Below the pieces are notes generated by a model. It searched no databases. It had not been told where the DNA came from and worked only from the letters and a program-made list of their open reading frames with translations. DNA of 64,000 nt from Blastocystis hominis (Eukaryota > Sar > Bigyra > Opalinata > Blastocystidae), in assembly GCF_000151665.1 (NCBI RefSeq), contig NW_013171867.1:658896-722895 (forward strand), in the 5' to 3' direction. The translations under genes and the position numbers were made by a program. Positions 23,612 to 64,000 of this stretch are shown here, piece after piece (within the stretch, counting starts at the first letter, position 1; each line of letters starts with the position of its first letter).

Positions 23612-23947
23612 CAAAAAACAAAAACAAATAAAGATAGTGTTGTGGGAATCGAACGAACGAGATGGAATTCAATCAATTTGCTTTTTCTTTTTCCTGATTA
23701 ATATGTAACATATTATTGATTGCGAAGAAATTTAGATATCAACGTATTGTGAGAATATGGAATTAATGCAAGTCAAAGGATTGACATAAATGACAATGCA
23801 CTCAAACAAATAGAGGTTAATCCATTTAATATAATTTGATGAACTATTCTATCTATTTCAGCAAATGGAAAATAGTTAGAATTAGAAAATAAAACCAAGA
23901 AAATGAAGTGAATGAAAAACTGGAAAATAACGTTTTTACATATAATA
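23612..23947. other. AT-rich intergenic
   Basis: Spacer between the divergent dihydroorotase and MORN/LRR genes. It contains AAACAAAAACAAATAAAG and long AT tracts. No RNA gene or ORF of interest. Confidence 0.6.
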
Positions 23948-26471
23948 ATGCAAAACATTGCGGAATTGGTCAATTCCCTTACCAGTGACTATCATATTGA
24001 TAGTTCCATCATCCAATATGTGCAAACCTGTGTGGATGAAGAATGGAAAGTGGATGGCTGGATTTCACTCATATTGAGTAATAGAGAATGTGTAGTATTG
24101 CAATTCAATAATGGAGTATTCTTGAATCAAGGATTTGTCCTCAATGATGAAAAAGTGTTGAAAGTGATTGGAAATCATCAAATTGGTGCTATTTCATATA
24201 ATGAAGAATTCTTGGTAAAAGGAATCGTGGATTTGGATCATGGAAGTCGATTTGAAGGATTGGTATTGGTAGAAAACGAAAAAGAAAACGAAGGTAAAAT
24301 AGGAATTCCATTTGGATATGGTGAAATGTATGATGATGATGGATTCTTGATGTACAAGGGCATAATGATCAATTGGAAACGATTTGGATATGGAACGAGT
24401 TATCATAATAATGGATGTATTGAATATGAAGGATATTGGTGTGATGATAATTGGTTTGGAATTGGAAAAGTGTTTGATTTATCAGGAAAGTTTGTAAAAG
24501 AATGTGAATGGTATAATGGAATCGAATGTGATACTGATGAAAAATATGAAGGAGATGGCAGCAAACCAAAGAATATTGGAATCAAATATTTGAAACTGAG
24601 TAACAATTGTGTATTGGTTGATTGGGATGTTTCCTTGTTCCACAATTTGGAATCAATTGAAATCGGGAATGAATGTTTTAAATCAGTGCAAACATTCAAA
24701 ATCGATGGATTGAATCGATTGAAAATCATCAAAATCGGAAACAATTCATTTACCCAATATAAGAACACATATGGAGGGAATGAATCGAAATCATTCCACA
24801 TATTGAATTGCGGATCATTGGAATCGATTGACATTGGTGAATTCAGTTTCAGTGATTTTGCTGGAGACTTTGAATTGAAGAATCTGCCACAACTACAATC
24901 CATTCAAATTGGAGCAATTGAAAGTGATTCATACAATTTTTATCATAGTTCATTTATAATTCGAGGTAAGCAATGATATGATATTGAATATTTGGGTAAT
25001 GCATAGATCTTCCAAATCTACAATCCATTACAATGGGTAAATATACATTTTGCCTCTCTTTATCAACAATAATCGCAAGTATTGAATGAATTTGAATGAA
25101 ATCATAAATTTAGATCTTCCAAATCTAACATCCATTCATCTTGGCTGGTGTGCATTACAAGGAAGAGAATATGACGAATCATGCTCCTTGATAATGCGAA
25201 GTATGAAAATGAAATGATTTGGAATAATTGAGTGTAGATCTCCCCCTTTTTTCATCGTTCCAAACAAACGGAATGTGCTTTTATTATACTGCAAATCTTG
25301 AATTGGAAAGTATTAGGAATCATTGGATCCTGATATGATTTAGATATTCCAAATTGCAGAAATGTTTGGGATCCATCTTCATTTACAAATGTCGTGTCAC
25401 ATAAAATTAGCAGTATTCTTTGTCCATTTATATTTTTATATATAATAGATGTCTGCTCCTCATTATTTCCAAATGTATATAACATTGATACATTTCCTTC
25501 TATTGAATCAACTGCTACATCCATTGTTCTTGAACCATGGACATGCAATGATATGGAATTTGAATTCTTCGATATCAGTCGATTTACTCTGTTAGAATCA
25601 TTAGACATTGGTAGTAATAGCTTTGCATTTGTGAAAATGTTCAAAATTAAGGCTTTGTCAAGACTGAAAAGTCTGAGAATAGGAATACGATCATTTACTG
25701 AGCGAAAAGGTAGTTTTGGAGAAAACAAATCGAAATCCTTCCACATTTTGAATTGTGAATCATTGAGATCGATTGAAATTGGCGAATTTAGCTTCAGTGA
25801 TTATGCTGGCGAATTTGAGTTGAAGAATTGTCCACAATTACATTCTTTGAAGATCGGATCAATAAAAAAGGATTCGTATAATTTTTATTATAGTTCATTT
25901 GTGATTCGAGGTATTGATATGAAATCAGCAGTGATGAATAGATCTTCCGGAATTGAAGTCCGTTGAATTAGGAACGAAAGCCTTCAGTAGTTCGCAAACT
26001 GTGAGAATTGAAAGTAAAGAATATGAGTGAAGCTGAATCATCAGAACTCCCTAAATTGCATTCTATCAATCTCGGTATGTTTTCTCTTTGTGGAAGAAGA
26101 AACGACCCATCTACCCGTTTGATCATGACAAGTTGGAATAAATTCAAAGACTTAACAAAATAGATCTTCCTTCCCTCTTATCCATTATTAATATTCAAGG
26201 AAATAGTTTTTCCTATTACAACACCGTAGTATTACAGAGTAAGTGAGGAACGTGTATGCTGGCTCAATATGCAGATATTCCGAATCTTACAACTTTGACC
26301 ATTCCTTACTCATTTGCATCAGTTCAAGAGATGTCAGTATCGAGTAAGCACCAAGGATAATTGTTAACAATAGAATTATCCTCTGCATTTTGCACGTTTT
26401 TGAAGGGTACTCCGGGATATCATACAATCAAATTGAACGACTCGTCATGCAAGAATTGTACTATTTTTTAG
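23948..26471 (+). CDS. MORN and leucine-rich repeat protein, exon-per-repeat
   Basis: Function unknown. The long first exon encodes a short N-terminal domain starting MQNIAELVN, then MORN-like repeats (FGYGEMYDDDGFLMYKG, GYGTSYHNNGCIEYEG, FGIGKVFD), then LRR_5-type repeats (LESIEIGNECF, LKIIKIGNNSF, LESIDIGEFSF, LQSIQIGA). After about 24966 the gene breaks into small exons. Each mostly opens with AT CTT CC after a TAG acceptor and encodes one repeat beginning DLP or DIP. Phase is 1 at both ends. Introns here are 30-80 nt, longer than in the housekeeping genes. The last exon ends CKNCTIF. The start was chosen at the ATG shared with the paralogue at 59031. Exon limits in 25.0-26.4 kb are approximate. 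Confidence 0.7.
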
Positions 26472-27458
26472 AATTAGAACCTGTTTGTTTTTACATATGT
26501 ATTTGGGATAGAATCTGTCTTGATGGCAAATAGGGGTTGTTTGTTGTCATAGAACGTGTTAATAATAGAATTTCTAAAATATATATTACTCATTACCGAT
26601 TATGAGAATATAGAGACGTTATAACAATCCTCATCCGTGATATCCATTTTTAGGCTCATTCCATTTGCTTATCAAGGACCTCCTTACTTTAACAACATAA
26701 ATATGTTCCAATTTCATGTTTTCTACAGTACTCCACTGAATAACTCAATGTCTCTGTAGTGTGCAATAAAAATCCTATTTCCCTTTCTCCATCCTATCGG
26801 TTAATTCGTTCTGGCTGTTGTAGTGTGTTTCCGTTTTTGTATGGCAACATACGCCACGTATCTACATTGATCACTTAGTATCTTGCAACAAATGATATAG
26901 TAAAAAAGAATTTTTAAATTTTAAACTCATTTTAAATATTGCTTTATCCTGTGGATAGTTTCATCTTCTTTCGATTTAGCAAATTGAACGCAGTAATCGT
27001 TTTCAAAAACTGTAAGAATTGTTTTAGACTTACCGATTCAAAGAAATCTAGTGATCTACCCTTGGTGAGTATAATCTCATGAACTTCATGATATCCGACA
27101 TTAATAATTATGGAAAAGACGCTTTAGTACGGTTATTTTACTAAAACGATGCTCCACAATAAATCGATGTATTACGTTCCGCTTACGTCATATTTCTTTG
27201 TTTACTTCAATGAGTGAGGTTTTAAGGCATATTCACTACCACGCTATTATTAATAATGGATTTTTTAAACGAACTAGACCTTCCATATTGCACAATTTTA
27301 AATTTTCTATCCAATGCTACTCCGGCTATCCAATTTTAGACGCGTTTGTCTTTCTAGGAATAATGAAAAGTTCGTTCTCCAATCACATTTATGCACAAAA
27401 ACAGCGAGTCGTGGTATTTATTTTATATCGATAAAGTGGATTTTAGTAGATTTTTGTT
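26472..27458. other. AT-rich intergenic
   Basis: Nearly 1 kb without convincing coding sequence; short ORFs only. TTTGTTTT-like runs near 26482 could end the MORN/LRR transcript. Confidence 0.6.
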
Positions 27459-30400
27459 ATGATCACTCCACTTCTGTTGCTTTTTGTTTTTGCGCAAATA
27501 GTTGTTGGAGAAATAATATGTGGAGCTGGACAGACGTATGCACGATTACTAATGCATTGTGAAGCTGCTTGCAATGAGCAAGCAGTGTCAATTTTGTCGG
27601 GAAGTGAAGTTGTTTATTTAAGCCCGATGTATATAGAATATGTAGATTCTGACACGGAAACCTGTTTAAAGTCATCTGTGAACAATCTGTATACTATGAA
27701 TTTCACGGACACACAGAATGATGGCTGGTATCCGGGGTCGTTTTTGATTGTATATGGGAAGTATGGTAATATTTTCTATAAGTATTACCAGGTCAGTCCC
27801 ACATACGAAACTCATCTTCTCTCTCTGCATTATGCTTTAAATTTAAACGAGGTTTGGAAAATATCGGAAAGCTATTATCCAGGATGGAATACCTATTGGT
27901 TTGATGATAGTGCGTGGAGTGAAGAGCAATTAGGAGTTCATTTTGGGAACTATTTAGTTACGCAGTACTTTCGGAAACCCTTTGCGGGAATCGACGGTAT
28001 GGCATCATATGAAGTACGTCTGAAGTATCGATTTGGCGTTGTGGCTTATATCAATGGAATCGAAGTGTTTCGTGATAATATGCAGGAGGGACCAGTTACA
28101 CCAACCACAACATGTTCTTCCTCTTATCAGGTGTCTGAGTTCCATGGATTCATTCGTCCAGGGAATGAAATAAGTCATACGCAGAGCATTCTGGCCGTAG
28201 AGATTCACTTTGCGCTTATGAATCAAACATTATTGGACTTTGATGCTTTTGTCGCCTTTATGGCTCCTTCTGTGTTTGAAAGCAATTGCATCGTTTATCC
28301 ATATCCAATGGACATTACTATTTCTGATAGTGGTGTACAGAATCCGGCCGCTATTTTTGATTTTGATACTTCATCCCGTGTGATACTGGATTTATATGCA
28401 AACGATACTTACACTTGGACGATGACAGTGCCCTCCTCCATATGGCCGCTCGTGAATGGGCTGCGCTATTATTCAGCGTCTTCTATCAATGGTTTTCGAC
28501 ACGCTGTTTTTGCTGGTGTAGATAGATCGGCGGTTCATCCATTGTTTACCTTGCGCGACTTGATTCTTCAAGACAATGTATATTATAATTTCAATTCTTA
28601 CTTTAACACGAGTATCTATAAGCAATTTCACTGGATCGTCTATGATTCATTTAGTAGTATATATATGGAACACGAGATCACGCCGATGATCTGTCGGACA
28701 GTTGTCCCTACTTCTCTCGAGCTCCGAGGCACTGACTTTGAAATCTTTCGAGATCTGGGAGCGGTGCTAATCCGCCCTGTCAACCTCGATTTTTCCGATT
28801 GCGAGCTCTCCCAAGCCCTGCCTGCAGGCTTAACGTTCAACGCGGATGGCTGCACGATTTCGGGGACTGCCACGGAATCGATGCCGCGAACCGAGTTTGT
28901 AAAGACGTCCAATGCCGTGTATCCTCCTGTGTCCGGAGCGTTTAACCTCACAGTCCGTGTTTGCACGGGAACGGTGTTGCAGGTTCACCGCGTCTATAAG
29001 AGTGGTGCGGCCAGCGAAGGATTCACTGTGTACAACGCGCTCGATGAGCAGAACGTGTACTATTCCGTTCCTGTGCAAGGAAGCCAACGAGATGCGGATG
29101 ATACGAAGGTTTTCATTTGCTCTGAATCGAACCAGATCGGAGTCGACCTTATTTCATCTATGGGTGCATGGAATACAGGTTCCTTTCTGTATATTGAGTA
29201 TCTTCTGGACGATGAGCAAACCGTAACGCTTCTTCGAGCGCACTATGATTCCTATTTGGGGCTGAGCACCTCGTACACCCTGACAGTGAATTTTCCCATT
29301 CGTCCTTTTGAGGAATGGCATTATTACACTGCTGGCGACGTTCCCGATTCCTGGTATTCTGCCGAGACGAGCGGATGGTCGAGCGCGTCGAAGGGGCACT
29401 TCACTCCGTTCACCAACCGCGTGCAGCTGTACAAAAAGACGTTCTCTCTGGACTCTCTGGAGAACGTGGCCGGGTTCATGGTGTCGGTGCAGTACCAGTA
29501 CGGCGTTGCGATCTACCTGAACGGAATCGAGGTGTTCAAGAACGGCATCACGGAGGTGAGCTCGACGGCGACGATCAGCAACATCTACCCCGCCCTGACG
29601 TTCCACAGCGTGACGCTGCCGGTGAAGACGATGATCGTGGACGAGCAGCCGTCGGTGACGTATTTGCAGAGCGGGTCGAACACGATCGCGATCGCTCTGA
29701 TCGCCAACTCGGACACCAACGTGAACTCCACCTTCGATGCCGCTTTGATGCTCCTCGAAGATGCTCAGTCCAGCCGGGTGTTTTCGTATTCTGTGAGTTT
29801 TGAGGGCGCTGAGCAGGTAAGTAGTAATCCCTTCGGTCATTCCCACGATTCCTATTTGAGCTCCCGGGAGTGCGGAGAGAATTCGATCGTCATCACGTTC
29901 GACAACGATCGTCGCGAATGGATCTCGTCTGTGCTTATCCAGGTGTACGCTGATGACATTAAAACCTACCCTCGCAAGTTCTCCGTCTTTGCAAAGAACC
30001 AGGCCGATCTGGAGTGGACCGCATTGGGCAGTTATGAGAATCTCGGCTGGTCGCTTTCCGGCCAGACCAAGAAGGTGTGGCTGAAGAACAACAAGCCCTA
30101 CAACCAGTACAAGTTCGCGAACTTCGGAACGGGCGACAGTACGAGTTGTCCTTGGAAGCTGAACCGAATCGACATGCTCTCCGATAACCTGAATGTGAAC
30201 ATTCCCGATCTGACCTATACCGAAATCAATCCCTTTGTGAATATCGAGATCGCCGAGGCCTACCCGAACTCGAACTTGTACTACGAATTCTCTGTGAATC
30301 CCGAGCTGCCCAACGGCATCCACCTCTGCCCCGTTTCTGGAATGATTTATGGAACTGCGACCGAGGGAAGGGATACGCAGACGTACACGATCTCAGCCCG

Positions 30401-32417
30401 CAAGGCAACGGGAGAGGCGACGAGCGTTCAGCTCAGTTTTGATGTGGAGGTGTGCACTGGAGGTCGTTCGCTCATCACCGTGCGCATGAAGGTGGACTCG
30501 TACGTCTCCGAAAACACCTACGAGCTCTACAAGGGTCGCGGAGACGGAGGCGAACTGATCACCTCGGTGGACATGATGCCTGTCGCCAACTCAATCTATT
30601 TCCTGGACAAGTGTCTCAACGACGACATCTACACGTTCTACGCGGCCGATTCCTACGGAGATGGCTGGGACGTGACTGCGGGATACATGTTCACGGTGGA
30701 TGTGGGCGCCACCATCTTTGAGGTGAAGGCCGTCCCGTCGGGCCAGAAGCCGGTGCGCGTGCCGACGTCGTTCTCGTCGTATCTGCCCTTCCAGATCAAG
30801 TACAGCGAGTGGATGGTCGCCAAGGTGAGCTCGCCTCCCGCCGACTGGACGTCTGTCTCGTACAGCGGCAGCGAGTTCCAGCCGATGAAGGCGGCGGAGA
30901 TCGGCGCGAGTCAGTACGTCACGACCTACATCCGAAAGACGTTCGAGATTCCCAACCTCGACGACTACCAGGTGCTGAACGTCCGCATTCTGTACGAGGG
31001 CGGTGTCGCTGCCTACTTTAACGGCAAGCTGGTCGCTCGCTTCAATCTCGAGAAGGACTTCAAGGAGAACACGCTGGCAATGTCGGTCCACGACACCCAA
31101 ACTTTCTCGAGCTTCCACATCATCCTCCCCATCATGGACGCCGTGGTCGGCACGAACGTGCTTGCCTTCGAAGTCCACGCAGCTCCGGACTCAGCGAACC
31201 CGGTGACCTTCGATGCGACGGGAATCTTCGGAGTCGAAGACTGCTCTCTGGTCCTGGATACGTTCTCGTCGATCACTGGAAAGACTCTGTACGGAAAGGA
31301 TGTGAAGGACCTGTTCAAATTCGAGATTGGCCAGCTCGGTCAGATCGACACTTTTGCTGGCAACGCGATTGAGTGGACGGTGGAGAATCTGGAGGGAACC
31401 GTGTTCAACAGCTTCGGCTTTTTGGGCTCCAGCCTGTCCACCTTCAGCTACTCTCTGGAGGGCACGCAGAACGCGGGCGAGGAGAATCTGAACATGTTCT
31501 CGGTCGTGGACGAGCCCGTCTTCAGCCGCCAGATCATGCGCAAGGACTCTCCGCTCAACTACCTCCCCTTCAAGAACTTCAGATGGGTGGTGGACGCGAA
31601 GGGTCCCGGCAATCTCCAGCTGCAGACCTTCCTCTTCTACTATTGCAAGACCTCCGGAGAAATCTGTGAGGGAGACGGCGAGTACCCTGCCGTGGGCGAG
31701 GGCCAGTTCTCCCCTGCGTTGTGCGAGTACGGATTCACGGGATACAAGTATCGCGAATGCCACAACGGCGTGCTGGGCGAAGTGATGACGGAGTACTGCA
31801 CGTACAAGATTCCTTCCGATTTGGAGTACCCGATGCGTACCGTGGAGATCGTGAAGGACGTCAAGATGAAGCCTATGGTCCCGACCTACAGCGAGCTGAT
31901 CACCAGCTTCCGCATCAACAAGGAGCTCCCGCGCGGACTGAAATTCGACAACGTGACCGGTACGATCTCGGGCACTCCCTTGGAGGAGACCACGCTGAGC
32001 GAGTACACGATCGTGGGCGAGAACCCCGTGGGCGCGGTGCAGACGATCATCAATCTGTCGGTGCGGAAGGGACGATGCATTGGCGACGGCAACTTCCCCA
32101 CGACCAACGTGGACGAGGAGGCCGTGTACGACTGCGCGCTGCTGGGAAGCTTCGTCGGCACGCAGAAGCGAATCTGCAAGCTGGGAGAGAGCGATGGCGA
32201 GTGGAGCCGAATCAGCGGAATGTGCATCTCCATCGTCACTCTCGTTCTCATCATTGTGGTGGCGATCGTCGTGTTATTTGTCCTTATTGTCGTCTTAATC
32301 CGAGTCACCCGCAGGAGAAAGGCTGTGCATGGCGTGAAGGCCACCTCGAAGACGACGACCACTCCTAAGAACAAGAACAAGGAGAAGGCCGCCAAGACGA
32401 ATAAGGTGAAAATCTAA
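27459..32417 (+). CDS. Large type I membrane protein with triplicated beta-rich units and He_PIG-like domains
   Basis: One uninterrupted frame of 1,652 codons. Signal peptide at residues 1-17 (MITPLLLLFVFAQIVVG) and one membrane helix near the end (LVLIIVVAIVVLFVLIVVL) followed by a basic Lys/Thr tail; most of the protein would be extracellular or lumenal. Three units of about 430 residues each hold a jelly-roll-like module (YFRKPF / KKTFSL / RKTFEI followed by VVAYINGIEVF, VAIYLNGIEVF, VAAYFNGKLVA) and, after each, an Ig-like putative cadherin motif (LPAGLTFNADGCTISGTA, LPNGIHLCPVSGMIYGTA, LPRGLKFDNVTGTISGTP). Two Cys-rich sushi-like segments precede the membrane helix (CEGDGEYP..., CIGDGNFP...). 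Likely a surface or adhesion protein. The 5' third is AT-rich and the rest GC-rich. Confidence 0.85.
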   Translation: MITPLLLLFVFAQIVVGEIICGAGQTYARLLMHCEAACNEQAVSILSGSEVVYLSPMYIEYVDSDTETCLKSSVNNLYTMNFTDTQNDGWYPGSFLIVYGKYGNIFYKYYQVSPTYETHLLSLHYALNLNEVWKISESYYPGWNTYWFDDSAWSEEQLGVHFGNYLVTQYFRKPFAGIDGMASYEVRLKYRFGVVAYINGIEVFRDNMQEGPVTPTTTCSSSYQVSEFHGFIRPGNEISHTQSILAVEIHFALMNQTLLDFDAFVAFMAPSVFESNCIVYPYPMDITISDSGVQNPAAIFDFDTSSRVILDLYANDTYTWTMTVPSSIWPLVNGLRYYSASSINGFRHAVFAGVDRSAVHPLFTLRDLILQDNVYYNFNSYFNTSIYKQFHWIVYDSFSSIYMEHEITPMICRTVVPTSLELRGTDFEIFRDLGAVLIRPVNLDFSDCELSQALPAGLTFNADGCTISGTATESMPRTEFVKTSNAVYPPVSGAFNLTVRVCTGTVLQVHRVYKSGAASEGFTVYNALDEQNVYYSVPVQGSQRDADDTKVFICSESNQIGVDLISSMGAWNTGSFLYIEYLLDDEQTVTLLRAHYDSYLGLSTSYTLTVNFPIRPFEEWHYYTAGDVPDSWYSAETSGWSSASKGHFTPFTNRVQLYKKTFSLDSLENVAGFMVSVQYQYGVAIYLNGIEVFKNGITEVSSTATISNIYPALTFHSVTLPVKTMIVDEQPSVTYLQSGSNTIAIALIANSDTNVNSTFDAALMLLEDAQSSRVFSYSVSFEGAEQVSSNPFGHSHDSYLSSRECGENSIVITFDNDRREWISSVLIQVYADDIKTYPRKFSVFAKNQADLEWTALGSYENLGWSLSGQTKKVWLKNNKPYNQYKFANFGTGDSTSCPWKLNRIDMLSDNLNVNIPDLTYTEINPFVNIEIAEAYPNSNLYYEFSVNPELPNGIHLCPVSGMIYGTATEGRDTQTYTISARKATGEATSVQLSFDVEVCTGGRSLITVRMKVDSYVSENTYELYKGRGDGGELITSVDMMPVANSIYFLDKCLNDDIYTFYAADSYGDGWDVTAGYMFTVDVGATIFEVKAVPSGQKPVRVPTSFSSYLPFQIKYSEWMVAKVSSPPADWTSVSYSGSEFQPMKAAEIGASQYVTTYIRKTFEIPNLDDYQVLNVRILYEGGVAAYFNGKLVARFNLEKDFKENTLAMSVHDTQTFSSFHIILPIMDAVVGTNVLAFEVHAAPDSANPVTFDATGIFGVEDCSLVLDTFSSITGKTLYGKDVKDLFKFEIGQLGQIDTFAGNAIEWTVENLEGTVFNSFGFLGSSLSTFSYSLEGTQNAGEENLNMFSVVDEPVFSRQIMRKDSPLNYLPFKNFRWVVDAKGPGNLQLQTFLFYYCKTSGEICEGDGEYPAVGEGQFSPALCEYGFTGYKYRECHNGVLGEVMTEYCTYKIPSDLEYPMRTVEIVKDVKMKPMVPTYSELITSFRINKELPRGLKFDNVTGTISGTPLEETTLSEYTIVGENPVGAVQTIINLSVRKGRCIGDGNFPTTNVDEEAVYDCALLGSFVGTQKRICKLGESDGEWSRISGMCISIVTLVLIIVVAIVVLFVLIVVLIRVTRRRKAVHGVKATSKTTTTPKNKNKEKAAKTNKVKI

Positions 32418-50227: not shown

Positions 50228-50320
50228 AAAAACTCTGAGAGGGAATATGAAATGAATGAGTAATATAATTATATTTTAAGAATGTGATATTTAAATAGGT
50301 AATTGAATAATAATAAAATG

Positions 50321-50436
50321 AGAACGGCCATATCTGATGGAAAGCGCCCTAACCCGTCCGATCTAGGAAGCTAAGTCATCACGAGTCGAGTTAGTACCAG
50401 TGTGGGTGACTCGCTGAGAAGTCTCGATGCTGTTCT
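50321..50436 (+). rRNA. 5S rRNA: 5S ribosomal RNA
   Basis: A 116-nt sequence with the 5S core CCCGTCCGATCT, the internal-promoter A box region (GGAAGCTAAGTC) and C box region (GAGTTAGTACCAGTGTGGG, GTGACTCGC). The ends AGAAC and GTTCT pair as helix I. A short T run follows, as expected for RNA polymerase III. It lies alone between protein genes, not in an rDNA array, within this window. Confidence 0.95.
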
Positions 50437-51996
50437 TTTATTCAACTATTCTATTCTTTTTTATTCTATTCTATTCTATTCTATTCTATTTTTCACTTTT
50501 CCATTGTTACATTCTATTCCACTTCGTTCCAAAATTGTAACCCGCGGGAATCCCTTTCTTTCCATCGGGTTTCACAGCAATCCAATTCATTCACATTGTT
50601 CCATTCATATTTTTATTCGTTCATCGGTTTTCCACAACTCCATCCAATCCATCTTCCAACCAAGTATCAAAACCATTTTCATTTACACTAACACCAACTG
50701 CCAAATCAGAATCAACGGGTTGAACACACACGAATAACCTGTCATTTGGTTCAGGGGATGATCACCGAGAGTTTTTATCAGTTCCTGACGTCCCATTCGA
50801 GATGCAAATACCCTAACCACCCAACCAGTATTACACAATTACTACAGCTTGTAATGGAGAATGGCGAACTATTGATGGAAATCAAGTTTGGATTGAATCC
50901 TATGGATGTGAAGATCGACAATTCGTTTTATCGAAATACGTTTCACACATTCCCAATCGTTTTCTTTATGTATTTGAATTGTCTGTTGGAGTCCTAATTC
51001 CAGTTGTCGTCTTTCACTCGTTATTGCTTCTTTCTCATTTTTCGATTTGGGTCTTTCTACAATTATAAACACTCACATTATTCAAGATTTGCTTTCTTAC
51101 AATTACATACCTTGATGGAATAACATATTATTATAACCAGAGTGATTGAGACATATTTGATTCCAAAAGGTAAATTGGACGATAGTCAATAAAATCATCA
51201 ACGAAATCAAGGTATATCGAAACCTATCTTCTCACTCATTCAATCCATCCACTTTTTTTATTGCTTTTACCTTTCTATCATTATTCCACTTCCCCGCGGT
51301 ATATCGCATCAGGCACAATGACTTTCTGCTTTCAATAGAATCACGGGAATATAAACACACACAAATCAACCAAACTCTAAACAACCTATCATCCTCATCC
51401 AACTCAATAGTTTTTATTCCACTATGAAACACAATAGTCGCCTCAATGAATCAACAACCAGCGATATTGTTAAACTATTGAATCTCGATGGATTATTTCA
51501 AGCAAACAAACAAACACCTATTTTTGTGAACATTGTTGATATCCATTGTGAAGTACAAGGAATTATCATTCACAATCATATTGTTTCTTTTCCAATCTTC
51601 TTTACATTCTATACACTCCAAAATCGAATCGAATCGAATCGAATCGAATCGATTCGAATCCAATCAATAGCCAAGAATCATAATCACAATCACATTTTCC
51701 AGTCCAAATACTTCCACATTATTTATCATATTACTCGAAATGCTCTTCATTCCAATCCATTCTATGAACAACATATAATAGCAGAAATGCAATGGAAGTT
51801 CTTATCGATATCCTTTTCTCTTACTCGTTTCAACGCCTGATTCAGTTCAGCAGTGTTACCAGCAAACGTGGATTCAGCCTCATTATCTCGTTGATGGGTT
51901 CTTTAGGCGTTCTTGGGCTGTGTTTTCTACTCTTTACCTCGAATTGAAACATGAATACTCTGCGTCACCACCGAGCTGTGGTCAGATTGGACATGT
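50437..51996. other. Low-complexity intergenic region
   Basis: About 1.5 kb of AT-rich sequence with (TTCTA)n at 50455-50492 and (CGAAT)n at 51624-51656. Two modest plus-strand ORFs (50746-50997, with ITQLLQLVMENGELLMEI; 51424-51840, with DIVKLLNLDGLFQANKQ) show some protein-like composition. They have no recognised family and could be decayed or unknown exons. Confidence 0.5.
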
Positions 51997-56286: not shown

Positions 56287-57611
56287 AGAGTATGTGTGAG
56301 AAGTGTTATTGTTTGTTGAAATAAAAGAGATAATTGAAGGACTTGAAGGATGAATGATGTGTGGTGTGTTGGATATGGGAAGTGAAAAGGAAACAATTGA
56401 AATGAAGACTAGAATAAGTTACTTGGTGTAGATTATAACTATTGGACGTAATGGCATGCAATACAAACACAATCGTTGAACAAATACTGATTGATTAGAC
56501 AGCGATGAAAATTGCATAGCGAAAAGAATCTGGTCATAAATGATGAATGATAATGATGAGTAATTCAGCCTTCACGACAAGCATCGGATCATAATATAGA
56601 CAATAACTGGTAGTGAATGAACAATAGACTGCAGTATTCCATGAAATATGGTCTATTTAGCATAATCAGTGAAATAGAATAACTTGAATAGGATTGAAAT
56701 AACCACAATAAGGAAAGAACGTGTTTATTTTTAATATCGTGGAAGTGAAATATAGGAAAAATGACAATAAAACAAGGTTTTTGATAGCATATAGATTGAA
56801 TATACACTTTTTGTAGACTTCATGCTGTACAGATAGCAATACTTGGATCATTAGAAAGCACAAACAACTGTGAATCCTTGTGTGAAAAAGAGAGCTTCAT
56901 AAATAGTACCCGATATCACAATAGAAGAATAGAATGAAATACCGTCTATAGAGTTCTTTATAAATTAACTAGATTGACAGTGTAACTAATAGAGTGATAA
57001 TAGTCACTATTGAATTGATAGAGAAATAGTAGAGTAAAAGAAACAAGCATTTTTCGAACACAATGAATAAACTCACTGAAACTATATCAATTCTAGTTGA
57101 AAATACGATTATCTATATGTGGATTTCAAATAGGTTTCAAACATAACATTCCATAAGATAATAAAGTATAATCCAATATATTCAAATGATCGTCTCAATT
57201 CAATCGCTCAGAATCTAGTGATTTGTTAAGGATAACACATATCAATATTGAACAATAAACTATGCTCGATTATATCAGTTTTGCTCCTCCATTCCTCATA
57301 TATGCATTATTATATTCTTAGCATCGATTACACGAAGGATAGAAACAAAATAGCTAAACAAATCTGGGTATTGATGATTATTAAAAGTGTCAATCATTGA
57401 TTGGATTTAGATCATTGACCAAAAAAGGCAGAGGGTATTTAAAAAACACTATAGGTATGAACATACGATGATTATTGAATGGAATGGAATGTGTAGATCC
57501 AATTCTGGAATTACTGCTCGATTTAGTGAACAAGATCAGCGAGAATGGAAGAAACATCTATGAATCAAATCAAATCAATCAAACTATACTCGAAATTGAT
57601 TTCGATCGAAC
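56287..57611. other. AT-rich intergenic
   Basis: Long AT-rich stretch without genes. Its right end may contain decayed or unread LRR exons of the minus-strand gene (for example a TAG-ATG TTT CTT boundary near 57545). Confidence 0.5.
56310..56317 (+). terminator. TGTTTGTT motif, large conserved protist protein gene
   Basis: Octamer 23 nt past the TAG stop. Confidence 0.65.
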
Positions 57612-59031
57612 TTTCTGGAATGAAATAGGTAGCTTGACATTTTGAAGATTTGGAATATCTAAATACTATCAATATTCTCAATTATAAAATACTTTCCAAT
57701 GTCACCCAACGAGGTTCATAGAAACTCCATTTTACAGAAGTTATTGATGTTAGAATTGGAAGATCTACAAAACAAATCATAACCAATCAATTCATTATTA
57801 CTTCGAAGTGTCAATGAAGTTAAACCATACCCAAATTTTCCAGCAAGTGCACCATAACCTAGTTGAATGGATTGTAATGATGGAAGATCTACATCATCAT
57901 TTCATTCGAATTCATTCAATACTATCAATTATTGTTGATTTGGATTCTTGGAATGCATGATAACCTAATGTAATGGATTGTAGATTTGGAAGATCTATGC
58001 ATCATTCAAATATTCAATATCATATCAATACCTCGAATCACAAATGAACTATTATAGAAATTGCCTGATTCTCTTCCAATTGTCCCAATTCGAATGGATT
58101 GTAATTGTGGTAGATTCTTCAATTCAAAGTCTCCAGCAAAATCACTGAAACTATATTCATCAATTTGAATGGATTCCAATGATTCACAATTCAATATGTG
58201 AAATGATTTCGACCAGTTGCTTCCATACGCCTTCTTATTCTGAGTAAATGAATTGTTTCCGATTTTGATCGTTTTCAATCGATTCAATCCATCGATTTCA
58301 AGTGTGTACACTCGTTCAAAACATTCATCGCCGATTTCGATTGATTCCAAATTGTGGAACAGTGAAACATCCCAATCAACCAATATACAATTGTCACTCA
58401 GTTTCAAATGTTTCATTCCGATATTCAGTGGTTCTGAGCCATCGCCTTCATAATCAATATCATTTTCAATTCCATTATACCATTCATATTCATTCACCAA
58501 CTTCCCATATCGATCATAGACTTTGCCAATTCCAAATCGCTTATCATCACACCAATATCCTTCATATTCAATACATCCATTATTATGATAACTCGTTCCA
58601 TATCCAAATCGTTTCCAATTGATCATTATGCCCTTGTACACCAAGAATCCATCATCATCATACATTTCACCATATCCAAATGGAATTCCAAACTTGTTTT
58701 CTGTCAATATCAATCCTTCAAATCGACTTCCATGATCCAAATCCACGATTCCTTCTTCAACATTAGAATGTTCTTCATTATATGAAATAGCACCAACTTG
58801 ATGATTTCCGAACACTTTCAACACTTTCTGCTCATTGAGGACAAATCCTTGATTCATGAATACTCCATTATTGAATTGCAATACTACACATTCTCCATTA
58901 CTCAATATGAGTGAAATCCAGCCATATGGTTTCCATTCTTTACTCAAGCATCCCTGCACATTTTGAATCATAGAACTATCAATATGATAGTTACTAATAG
59001 CAGAATTGACAAAATCAACAATGTTTTGCAT
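57612..59031 (-). CDS. MORN and LRR protein, paralogue of the 23948 gene
   Basis: Closely similar to the plus-strand gene at 23.9 kb along the first exon: start MQNIVDFVN, the shared core GWISLILSN.ECVVLQFNNG, MORN repeats (GYGEMYDDDGFLVYKG, GYGT, GIGKVYD) and LRRs (LESIEIGDECF, LKTIKIGNNSF, LESIQIDEYSF). Small phase-1 exons follow (DLPNLQSITLGYH, DLPSLQSIQLGYG, DLPILTSI, DIPNLQNVKL), each after a TAG acceptor and opening ATCTTCC or ATATTCC. The upstream in-frame extension to 59112 is probably untranslated, because the two genes align only from MQN. The 3' end was not found; the limit given is the last clear repeat. Confidence 0.65.
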
Positions 59032-59785
59032 GGAAATGAAAAGAAATAATGGTAAAACGGTTATTTTGGAAACAAGATCTGGTTCATTATTTCTCGATAG
59101 AACACACGTCATGGATTATTGTGTATGGCTTTGATATGCTGGTGTGTTACAAACTAGAATACATAGGATAAAACCTCATTTTCTTTACCCATTCCTATTT
59201 TTCTTTATTTCGGTGCATTTCCATCTATTCATTTATTCTTGTGTTATTTTCAGATAATTATAGCTATAATTGTAAATTATTACGCATTTTGATCACCTTT
59301 ACTCTCTCATGTTAGAATGGCTGTTCTATTAAGTCTAGAATGGATGTATATTATTCAAAATATATCAATTATGTGGTAGTTGATCTTGTTTTGGAACAAT
59401 CGAACTCACAATAGTGAATACTGTTGGAATGGTTAGATTCGTAATAGAGAGGATGGCAGTAGTATGTAGAATGCAAAATCCATTATTAGTATTTGATTAG
59501 TAGTTATGTGTTGGCGTGTATTACGCGATAATTATGACGGCCAAAGTATCCCCTCAGGCCTCATCTTCCATCGATCACCGTTGCTGACCCTGGACAACAT
59601 GTAGTTTTCACCCTTCATAAGAAATTAGGTGCGATATTCTAATCTTAGCTTATTTTGCTCACCCCACTGATTATGGTAAAAAGAGACAAACCATACACTA
59701 CTCCGTGCTCATTTAAGGCTCACCTAGTAAAGGCACGTTCGAATGGATCAACTCGTACAAGTATCGGAAACTCTACATCACTTCT
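59032..59785. other. AT-rich upstream region
   Basis: No clear gene. In-frame codons upstream of 59786 (TFEWINSYKYRKLYITS) look protein-like and may belong to the capsid-like ORF, preceded by a TAA at 59714. Confidence 0.5.
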
Positions 59786-61379
59786 ATGACTGTCCTGTTC
59801 ACACCCAATCAAGTCATGTTCAACAATGTGAATTCTACGAATGTGGTCACAATATCGAATGACGAAGAGCTAACGATTCCTCCTGGATACTACATGATCG
59901 GTCAAATCATTGCCATCCTCAACACCATGACCGATACTACATTCTCGATATCTACGAAGGCTTCGAGTTATGGGTGTATTTATATCCAGTCCCCTCACAC
60001 CATCGATTTCACCAATGCTCCGGATATTCGAGAAATCCTCGGTTTGGAAGGACAAATGGTCATTCTATCCGCTTCGTTCTATGGATCGAACGTGATTGAT
60101 ATCATGCGAAATCGTCAAGTGATCCAAGTGTACTCATCGATTGTGCGTTCCTCCGATCTGAAGATTGCCAATCAGAACAACAACCTGCTCACCACAATGA
60201 TCATTGCCGATCCCGAGGTTAATTATCTCCGCACCATAGAAGACATCTGCATTCCGATGATAACCCGATTTGACCGATTGATGTTCCTGTTCCGCGATAT
60301 GGATGGTAATATCATGCGATTGAACGGCGAATTCGAACTCCAGTTGACAAGAGAAGATGTGTACGATCAAGTGCCTTCCTCAATTCTACCGATGAACCAG
60401 TTGAGTATGATGGAAGTGTTCGATAATACTACGAAGAAGGAAGTGAAGCTGGACAATCCTCTGTCATTCGATCGATGTTCCATCTCGTCTGTGTCACTCT
60501 ATACCGATTTCGTGTTGCACAACGTACCATCCGATCAAGTGATATTAATCGATGCGGGGACATCTCCACACGAGGTGTTAATACCCAGAGGAGCCTACGA
60601 TATCGAAATGATCATTGCAATGCTGAATGCGAGTGATGCTTTGTTCGAATTGGTGTATAGCGGTGAGAATGCATTCCACATCACAGTGAATCATTTCTGC
60701 ACGATCGATTTCACTCGTGCTCCCGAGATCCAATCGATCCTCGGATTCGAATCGAGTGTGCTGGTGAAAGGACTGGAAAATCCACGGCAATACTTCCTGA
60801 GTACCTCGTGTAACCAGATAGTGGTGTTGGCGAACGGCGAGACCTCCCTTGTCCTATCGATGCCTACTGATACTACACGTTCTCCCAGTTCATCGAGGCT
60901 GTGGGCAACGAAATGGACAAGGTACTTCCCTCGTATCGATGCCGATCAATGACAACAACCAGGCATACTTGGTCTCCGAGAATGCTCAATCGGTCGACCT
61001 GAGTGGTGCATCCGACATTGCGAACATCCTGAAGCTGGAAGGCTTACTGACACCTACTACTACCGTTGCGAGTGAACCATATGACATCACGAATGGCATG
61101 AGTGTGATCCGAGTGTACAGTAGTATCAATGCTCAAACATTCGGTCTGAAGAGTCTGTTGATCGATAACCTGATTCATGTATCGATGGGACTGAACAACA
61201 TGATCACCTGGGACAACCTATCGATCGATGTGATTGAACAATCGAACTTGGATTCCATTGATTGGGTACTGACAGATGCAAATGACCGTCCGATCTCCTT
61301 GAATTCGAATGTGTACATCTCATTCACGATATCTTGTAAGCACAACTTCAGTAAGGTATTCAAGAAGATAGATAGATAG
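59786..61379 (+). CDS. Polinton-like-virus penton/minor-capsid-like protein, tandem modules
   Basis: Resembles the penton (minor capsid, single jelly roll) proteins of Polintons and Polinton-like viruses of protists. Each module shows an IP.G.Y....IIA.LN start (residues IPPGYYMIGQIIAILN; IPRGAYDIEMIIAMLN), an IDFT.AP.I..ILG.E block, a VIQVYSSI-type strand, and an ending like FRDMDGNIMRLNGEFELQL or VLTDANDRPISLNSNVYIS. Two modules lie in the first frame (to about 60850). A third continues in another frame to the stop at 61379. The reading breaks between about 60860 and 60960, so the copy may be decayed, or an intron is present. No other viral gene was recognised nearby. Confidence 0.5.
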
Positions 61380-62594
61380 ATATCAATGTCTATCTTCCAT
61401 CTATATACATATATACATATATATATCTGAAAAGTAATAGTTTGATTGTTGTCTCCAACAAATAATCAGCCAGATATGTCTCACAGCTTGATATTGGACA
61501 ACTACTCATTCCCATAGAGTCCATTCTTATGGGTTTCAGCTTTATTATCAACAATACTGATATCACTATTAGTGAGTAATTCTATTCATCCTAATGAGTT
61601 GGGAACCAAAGCATTTCACTTTCATCAACCAACTCAAACAGCAAGTATTATGTATACTATTGTTATTCATGCTCGTAATAGAACAACATTGTGAATCACT
61701 TTGTATCCCTATTGAAGTGGTGTACAATTCGATCCTTCCTTTAAATAGGAGATATTCTGCATTATTTGGCAGGTGGGGGATACTATATGGGTTAGAATAA
61801 GGGATAGTATTCTCTGGCAATATAACAAACTCTGATAGGTTCAGAGTGCATCAAAACGACAAAAACTGGACACCAACTATCCAAAAACCTAGAAACAGTG
61901 GAATATGAATATATCTCTATTTGTTCGTATAAAATATATTATGTATTCTACCTTATTTTGCTCAGTTCTTCAACGACACACCCACCTTTCTCACAAACTC
62001 TACTATTCGATTCTACTATACACATATCACATATTATTACTATAAATGATAACCCAAAAACTGCTTATCGCTAGCTTTTCCATTTTCATTCCTATCATCA
62101 TCTTCTACATACCCTATTTCTTTCTATCCCATCTAGAGTAGATTCCAAATGAATAGAACGAAAAACAAAACGCTTCCACTGGAAACAACACTCTTCGATC
62201 TATTCATTCCACAATATCCCATTTCCGCTCATCTCCTTCCACTTCACAGTAAAAACAACTCCCTCCCTATTCGAAATCTATTCTTCCACTCATACCCAAT
62301 TTCAACACTATTTTCACAATTGCACAATTCCTGTGTATTTTTGAAATCATTTGTTTTACAATAAAAGCTATTAGCTTCGTCTTACTGGGTTTGAATGTAT
62401 TCAAAATTTGGAATTGGACTTGTATGTCCTGTCTTTTGTTTTGTTTTGTTTTGGGACTTCTATGTGTTTTTGTGTGTTGTGTTGTGGGAGTGTAAGTATT
62501 GTAGCTGGGATGGGTTCTGTCGTCAAGTTGGTGTGTTTGAAGAAGCTAGTGTAGTGTGCGCTATCGTTACTTTGACTAAACTGTGTGTGTGAAA
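61380..62594. other. AT-rich intergenic with TA-rich tract
   Basis: A TATACATA-type tract lies at about 61400-61430, then scattered short ORFs with no recognisable family. GTTTTGTTTTG runs occur near 62435. Confidence 0.5.
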
Positions 62595-63650
62595 TATGCA
62601 TCGTGAACGCATTCAATACCATAATGGCGGTGGACCCTGGTTCCATTTTTGCTGTGTGGAGTGTGTTCCGAGTGAGGAATTTCTGTACTTCAAACTGTGT
62701 AACGTGGCGAACCCATTCATGCCATGTGGGACCGCGGATACATGGAGATAACTTGCAACGTGGGAGGTATCTGGTACAGGCACGACGTTCTTGCCTAGGA
62801 TATCTGTTCTGTTTCTCGTATTTTCATTTTCATATTGTGATGTGGTAGAGTGTGGTAGAGAGAACGGATTTGCGATGAGTGAAAGGGCAAACAATGGGAG
62901 CAATAGCTGTAGGTTTGTAGAAGCGGAGCGTGTGTGGAACTTGGGAGAATGGGACAAGAAGGCGGAGTATGCGAACTGCTGTGGGTACGGTCCTCGCCTC
63001 TGATTGATGGGAGCTGAGTGAACTGGAATGGCCAGTGGGAGCAGGCGAGTTCCAAGACGGTGCAGTTGTGCATTTGTGGGTCTGTGGAGCATGGGAAGGT
63101 GGAGGTGTGCGTGGTGCGGGTACCTCGCGCGCAGGAAAATGCAGAGCTGCGACACCTCGAAGAGGGCGTGGTTGAAAGACTGGGGTTGGTGTTCGGTGAA
63201 CATCAGGAATGGGTGTATGGGGTCAGGAGCGGAGCCTCCGCGCGTTGTGGTGAAGTCCACGAGCGATCTGTGAGTGAGGCTGAAGGACATGGCGCTGTTC
63301 GAGAAGAAGGAATTGAACGTTGAGCGTCGAGCGGAATGAGAGGACTGGCAAAGGATCTCTTGCAGATGGTGGGGTTGGATTGGAGCCTTGGAGCGGTTCA
63401 CGGAGGATAGGATGGATGTGTTGGTGGAGGACGTGAGCGGATGGTGAAGGGTTAAACTGCAGCTTGGGCTTGGGTTGCGCGGCGGATGGGGCGTTCCCCG
63501 CGGGACGCGATGTGTGGCACGTGTTGGAGGGTGGGATCCCCGCGACTTCCTACACGCTGGAGTGCGTCCCGCGCGAAGTGGAATGGAAAGATGGAGTGGA
63601 AGTGAGTGGAAGAGATCTCTATGATGGATGGCATATTCATTCATTCATTC
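62595..63650. other. GC-richer block, probable unidentified gene
   Basis: Base composition jumps to that of coding DNA. The plus strand has protein-like pieces in changing frames, for example GGGPWFHFCCVECVPSEEF and FLYFKLCNVANPF, the kind of WF.F and I.N pattern found in the N-terminal domain of M14 cytosolic carboxypeptidases. A later stretch reads TVQLCICGSVEHG. The minus strand has an open frame of 343 codons, but it is Pro/His/Ser-rich like a shadow. I could not assemble a coherent protein. Confidence 0.3.
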
Positions 63651-64000
63651 ACTCAATATTACTTGTTTATTTTATACTATTGCTATGTTAATCACATTGC
63701 ATTTCACATTGTTTTGTTGATCAAATAGAAAGCAAGGTTTTCATTCATAGGATTCATGGATTCCATCCATTATCATATTATTCAATCGATTGTTTTGTTT
63801 AATGATACTATGATTCCTATTCACCATTTCAATCTATGAACCACATTCCTTTCTCTGCAATATCATTCTTTGTACTCAATATGGATGATCATTGTGACAG
63901 AAGAGAATCGAAGTATCAACAGAGAATCAATACAATAAACCACTTGTCAAATAGAAATGATGGATTTTGCATTCTACACACTAGTACCATACTCTCTATT
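63651..64000. other. AT-rich end of window
   Basis: A short ATTC repeat at about 63635-63650 and AT-rich DNA. No gene was seen. Confidence 0.6.

Follow-up and report, generated by a model that had tools for sequence, protein, structure and literature searches.

A probable decayed end of a Polinton-type virus in the Blastocystis genome, with parts of two penton-type genes joined in one remnant

Does a sequence with three penton-type stretches in a row, a broken reading frame and no other viral genes beside it represent a gene, or what is left of a virus? The question is raised by the window, i.e., the whole 64-kb stretch of Blastocystis DNA that was analyzed, in which an endogenous Polinton-like penton gene with three tandem capsid modules had been predicted at 59786..61379. 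These bounds correspond to the start of a 388-aa ORF (59786-60952, plus strand) and the stop of a second, overlapping ORF in another frame (60849-61379). Searches of the window ORFs against Pfam, PHROGs and NCBIfam gave PF24524 (DUF7596) as the best match, with an E-value of 0.0026 and under its cut-off, and the sequence search against the PDB gave no convincing relative. A viral-contig scan, from which records near this genome were possibly excluded, yielded three pattern matches to the window ORF and no confirmed relative. When the window protein was compared with the window's own assembly (18.7 Mb), at least 107 matches were obtained (106 of 343 candidates scored). Forty-six of the 107 rows, at 45 places, lay in open frames of at least 900 aa with no stop in the match, and the window residues aligned to the N-terminal part of these frames.

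One intact relative, an element of about 22.5 kb at approximately C3:248542-271005, was the sole element followed from end to end, and was read in pieces (L012, L031, L033, L036 and L040). Its left terminal repeat is followed by gene A (1,008 aa from the first Met), an ORF of about 110 aa and gene B (232 aa). Next come a coiled-coil-like protein of 749 aa, a protein of 346 aa, a protease-like frame of 199 aa and a KilA-N domain gene (L031:6402-7268; E 1.3e-9). On the opposite strand there follow three frames, one ATPase-like, one of 179 aa and one encoding a protein of 429 aa, and the first strand resumes with a 433-aa fibre-like protein, an rve integrase, small frames, PolB and the right terminal repeat. 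Here, 'ATPase', 'protease', 'fibre' and 'coiled coil' are labels given from a reading of the letters rather than from library matches. The candidate FtsK/HerA-type ATPase (minus-strand frame, L031/L033) has Walker-like motifs by eye and a Pfam AAA match with an E-value of only about 0.1, and the candidate adenovirus-type cysteine protease was proposed from motifs by eye, with no convincing Pfam or PDB sequence match. A second, partly read locus (L032 at C39) has the same gene order from the end of gene A to the KilA-N gene.

Typical of Polintons are a double-jelly-roll (DJR) major capsid protein (MCP), an rve integrase and PolB, together with terminal repeats and a target duplication of 6 bp, all of which are present in the C3 element. 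Its inverted terminal repeats begin with AGTAGTAGGG and are 90-92% identical, and GATACG stands outside both ends as the 6-bp target duplication of this one element. The integrase matched PF00665 (E 2.7e-12) and retroviral integrases in the PDB (best E 4.9e-5). PF03175 matched at C3:268855-269892 within a 1519-aa open frame that was read through to the right terminal repeat, which makes the product a family B DNA polymerase, with protein priming as its predicted mode. A DJR MCP was likewise found. Sequence comparison of the gene-A profile, the MCP profile, the protease and PolB with the PDB gave no convincing relative, the MCP had no match in phage records, and the viral-contig scan with the MCP gave one pattern match and no confirmed relative, records near this genome again being possibly excluded. 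The original prediction had called for a search for inverted repeats and MCP or ATPase genes outside the window; the repeats and the MCP are present in the C3 element, whereas the ATPase is a candidate from motifs.

DNA homology between the window and the C3 element starts at 59668 (78.4% identity to L012), and the following parts were distinguished:

59668..61379, plus strand: full extent of the Polinton remnant, in which the 5' portion of gene A runs into the 3' portion of gene B (start of the C3-element DNA homology; stop of the B frame)
59693..60376, plus strand: module M1 of gene A, a penton-type jelly roll that spans residues ~1-228 (tblastn with the intact gene A; fold matches of homologue residues 1-230)
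60398..60868, plus strand: module M2 of gene A, which repeats the first half of M1 and spans residues ~236-391 (tblastn; hhalign of M1 vs. M2)
60871..60930, plus strand: gene A residues 393-412, out of frame with the preceding part (tblastn, 85% identity)
60930..60936, plus strand: gene A/gene B deletion junction (the A match stops and the B match begins here; A and B apart in 2/2 loci)
60936..61379, plus strand: C-terminal part of gene B, residues 94-232, the third module of the original prediction (tblastn, 79% aa identity)
61339..63120, plus strand: non-Polinton flank, common to many loci and outside the element (40 scored matches of 61400-62500; runs into a repeated gene family with weak fn3)

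The window copy spans three frames, with gene A residues 1-391 at 59693-60868, gene A residues 393-412 at 60871-60930 and gene B residues 94-232 at 60936-61355 (tblastn). The original start of gene A is lost, an early stop is present, and the 388-aa ORF starts at an internal Met. Window positions 61065-61337 share 94% DNA identity with C3 gene B, and the remainder of the element is absent beyond the fusion. When 14 element protein pieces and gene A were searched against the window (tblastn, E <= 0.01), only genes A and B matched, and the terminal-repeat motif was absent from the 64 kb. The sequence thus stands alone inside the window, as had been stated, but the genome has MCP, integrase and PolB loci. 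The window copy does not itself carry the core genes and terminal repeats of a Polinton; it is a remnant, not an element, and very probably a non-functional pseudogene.

The assignment of 59786-61379 to Polinton-type penton sequence was borne out by tblastn of intact genes A and B and by hhalign, in which M1 and M2 of gene A were homologous to each other (probability 97.6) and gene B was homologous to M1 (probability 94.2). Residues 1-230 of a gene A homologue matched penton folds, with PBCV-1 8h2i_bG in the top VIA-align row. These fold matches were obtained with a low-confidence model (gene-A pLDDT of 65.5 and pTM of 0.41); gene B is tied to pentons only through its sequence relationship to gene A. 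A chance motif as the source of the penton signal was ruled out by the module homology and the tblastn matches.

Gene A resembles a pair of penton-type jelly rolls, with an insertion of about 550 aa splitting the second one. The Mavirus penton (PDB 6g41/6g42) and the adenovirus penton base have one jelly roll each and differ from gene A in the second, split jelly roll that it seems to have. The usual length of a Polinton penton is 250-300 aa, compared to about 1,000 aa for gene A, and 51 of the 55 database relatives of gene A are 922-1,121 aa long. The PBCV-1 capsid protein (8h2i chain bG, 504 residues) belongs to a giant algal virus, and its match is limited to the first module. The closest named match was A0A8S5L5B1, a putative penton of the unclassified MELD virus sp. 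(taxid 2834287), which resembles gene A in length (996 aa) and is 39% identical to it over 1030 alignment columns (Foldseek E 6.8e-86). Row 2 of the same search was a second MELD virus sp. protein of gene-B size (A0A8S5L5C7, 236 aa); the window copy is instead a truncated fusion of the counterparts of these two genes. In intact elements, A and B most likely form the five-fold vertices of a DJR-MCP capsid.

With a probability of about 0.93, this part of the window represents the left end, now decayed, of a Polinton/Maverick-type virus that had integrated, with genes A and B joined by a deletion. That it might be the relic of an integrated protist virus had been one of two suggested origins, and is supported by the alignment to intact Polinton-type loci of the same genome. 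The intact relative has gene A just inside its left terminal repeat, then the ORF of about 110 aa and gene B. Alignment to intact loci shows that a deletion in an older Polinton lineage brought codon ~412 of A next to codon ~94 of B.

The three penton-type stretches do lie head to tail (tblastn), and gene A itself is partly repetitive, both of which favor the reading first proposed, a true penton gene of three modules with one simple break in its frame. However, the third stretch is gene B at 79% aa identity, and B is a gene separate from A in both loci read across them (L031 at C3 and L032 at C39), while full-length gene A continues beyond residue 412 with other sequence. The frame does change before the third stretch, but through a small break plus the deletion junction, and with three frames in use rather than two. 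One three-module gene was rejected on gene order and tblastn, and is regarded as highly improbable. A fragment of a minor capsid gene of an endogenous giant virus (Nucleocytoviricota) would fit the PBCV-1 protein at the top of the VIA-align rows and BFVD rows 3 and 4, in which Catovirus and Klosneuvirus proteins are listed as putative minor capsid proteins. The best viral match is to MELD virus sp., however, and a giant-virus origin was rejected on the related element of about 22.5 kb, which carries an rve integrase and PolB and is bounded by terminal repeats with a target duplication of 6 bp; it is given next to no weight.

Two other C39 loci have the structure and flank of the window copy (97.96% identity over 2,796 bp and 95.67% over 2,889 bp). 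These three loci share non-viral sequence beyond the remnant, which was later copied together with its flank. Sixteen further loci (L038, L039, L041-L054) have a shorter form without window positions 60604-61070; a further loss of about 466 bp would have given rise to this commoner '1-281' form, presumably in that order. In eight of these 16 derivatives, a single open frame of 362-464 aa from stop to stop runs across the join. With window 61400-62500 as query, the flank gave at least 40 scored matches (52 candidates) with 95-100% identity, the window included. It runs on into a GC-rich gene, itself repeated, whose match to fn3 is weak (22.2 bits against a cut-off of 25; window 61400-64000, L055/L056). 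Where the flank is present, its homology begins in the 3' part of gene B (61070, 61071, 61075, 61084, 61311 or 61339). It is not shared by L004, L005, L010 and L037, ends at 61375, at the Polinton end, in L039, and is masked beyond in L044. Since flank and remnant were duplicated together, the remnants seem to have traveled with a host repeat rather than by transposition of their own. Compared with the window, the gene-A parts diverge by about 7-13%, but gene B together with the flank by only 2-4%. Simple co-duplication does not explain this contrast, for which gene conversion of the flank is a possible cause. In L039, a Polinton terminal repeat (PolB end) abuts the 3' end of the penton remnant near position 1207, an arrangement that would fit the insertion of a younger Polinton into a remnant already present.

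The surroundings of the remnant (GC content of 0.35-0.42 in 2-kb windows near the feature) contain host genes for a Tra1-like protein, Spb1, ubiquitin-L40 and a PHD protein, and a 5S rRNA gene (50320-50438). A 95.8% identical copy of the 5S rRNA region (50277-50443) was seen on another contig near a Polinton remnant (L039:2819-2985). A repeated host gene family, MORN-like and leucine-rich-like by eye with weak Pfam matches below cut-off, is present at 58006-59112 (minus strand) and 23912-24976 (plus strand); it was seen several times beside Polintons or remnants, and region 57000-59100 gave at least 62 DNA matches (40 of 420 candidates scored). At 27450-32417 (plus strand), a 1,655-aa frame without stop has putative Ig (He_PIG) matches (E 6e-16) and looks by eye like a surface-type protein. 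The sequence TGTTTGTT occurs in 22 exact copies in the window, compared to 2.4 expected from base composition. It lies within 60 bp after three of 13 frame ends (Tra1-like, Spb1 and ubiquitin-L40), several of the other ten being exon ends or antisense frames. In the part of PMC4159000 consulted, it is described as a Blastocystis polyadenylation motif whose variants differ by up to two bases.

The age of the window copy was analyzed in an unrooted tree of 281 codons and 47 loci. Twenty loci of the C3 kind formed one group (branch 0.138, support 1.000), while the window copy fell with L002 and L003 in a star-like group; it belongs to an older, decayed lineage. Pairwise dN/dS was 0.17 for full elements (19 loci), 0.29 for the 16 derivatives and 0.34 for the C39 trio. 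Singletons, taken as younger changes, were compared with a neutral expectation of 2.83 nonsynonymous per synonymous change. Full elements had 27 nonsynonymous and 34 synonymous singletons and no stop, and are constrained (p 1e-6). In 23 other loci (the derivatives, the trio, L037, L004, L005 and L010), 120 nonsynonymous and 59 synonymous singletons were counted, with four stops where 7.4 were expected. The resulting ratio of 2.03 is close to neutral and just below it (p 0.04), and differs from that of the full elements (p 0.002).

These values bear on a host gene, captured and duplicated as the original prediction alternatively suggested, in which the host would keep the chimeric A/B frame, e.g., as a particle-forming protein or an antiviral decoy, and its copies would have multiplied together with the flank. 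The open frames across the join, the scatter of chimeric loci over many contigs with a common flank, the dN/dS of 0.29 and its slightly lower value in the eight intact-frame derivatives than in the eight broken ones (0.27 vs. 0.32) are in its favor, as is a one-mismatch TGTTTGTT at 61443, shortly after the window copy. With dN/dS below 1 and singletons below neutral, some constraint on the remnants is possible; divergence inherited from the active virus can explain such dN/dS as well. The three frames of the window copy, the broken frames of L002 and L003 and the near-neutral singletons argue against a kept host gene, although not conclusively. The lack of an exact TGTTTGTT after the remnant is a weak point against it, since published variants differ by up to two bases. 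Overall, a domesticated gene is considered very unlikely, and a decayed viral end is preferred, the window copy itself most likely doing nothing.

The abundance of related elements was determined by position, C3 alone having been read through. The assembly contained 83 MCP, 115 integrase and 86 PolB matches. Since 77 of the 83 MCP rows were 93-100% identical to the query, many element copies are young. After fragments beside other rows were dropped, at least 76 MCP loci, whole or partial, were counted; at the expected spacing, gene A lay upstream of 53, and integrase and PolB lay downstream of 65 and 54, respectively. All three surrounded 38 of the 76, with a median distance of 20.3 kb between gene A and PolB. 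Among 107 integrase loci, 53 had both MCP and PolB, 12 only MCP, 15 only PolB and 27 neither. In L037 (G000:C24:131500-141400), an integrase comes directly after the 5' end of gene A, with small frames and PolB behind it, a layout which indicates that capsid-less Polinton derivatives exist in the genome; three of 106 gene-A loci have a same-strand integrase no more than 3 kb away. At an estimated 22.5 kb each, the 38 four-marker loci would amount to about 0.9 Mb, and all 76, if whole, to about 1.7 Mb of the 18.7 Mb. By analogy with known Polinton biology, the intact elements would replicate through PolB and integrate through the rve integrase.

Integrated Polinton-like viruses are widespread in protists (PMC10120064), and protist Polintons/Mavericks and polinton-like viruses (a topic also of PMC12220804 and PMC12721341) are likewise integrated dsDNA elements. 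Neither 'Blastocystis' nor 'penton' occurs in the main text of PMC10120064, 'virus' was absent in a word search of the main texts of the Blastocystis genome papers PMC5608401 and PMC3129679, and 'Blastocystis' is absent from PMC11071308 and PMC11071296. The 2011 subtype 7 genome paper gives 25% repeats (PMC3129679, in the part consulted). In the literature searched, neither a description of Polintons in Blastocystis nor a vertex design of a double-jelly-roll gene A and a single-jelly-roll gene B was found. A host link between Blastocystis and MELD virus may already be published (Starrett et al. 2021), and a claim of novelty is weak there. The virus-like particles of Blastocystis, described in the accessible part of one review as about 30 nm with a dsRNA fraction, may or may not be these Polintons; their size and dsRNA do not fit a Polinton, which lowers the likelihood of a novel particle reading.

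It is conceivable, although on balance doubtful, that Blastocystis harbors dozens of intact, recently copied, particle-capable Polintons whose vertices consist of a tandem double-jelly-roll penton A and a single-jelly-roll partner B, with fragments, including chimeric A/B genes, dispersed through the genome together with a host gene family that is itself repeated. Taken by itself, the window copy is a pseudogene, and the main interest lies outside the window, in the intact elements and the doubled penton. They point to a large Polinton load in a very common protist of the human gut, offer a candidate host for the 'MELD virus' contigs and raise the question of how a five-fold vertex is built from gene A.
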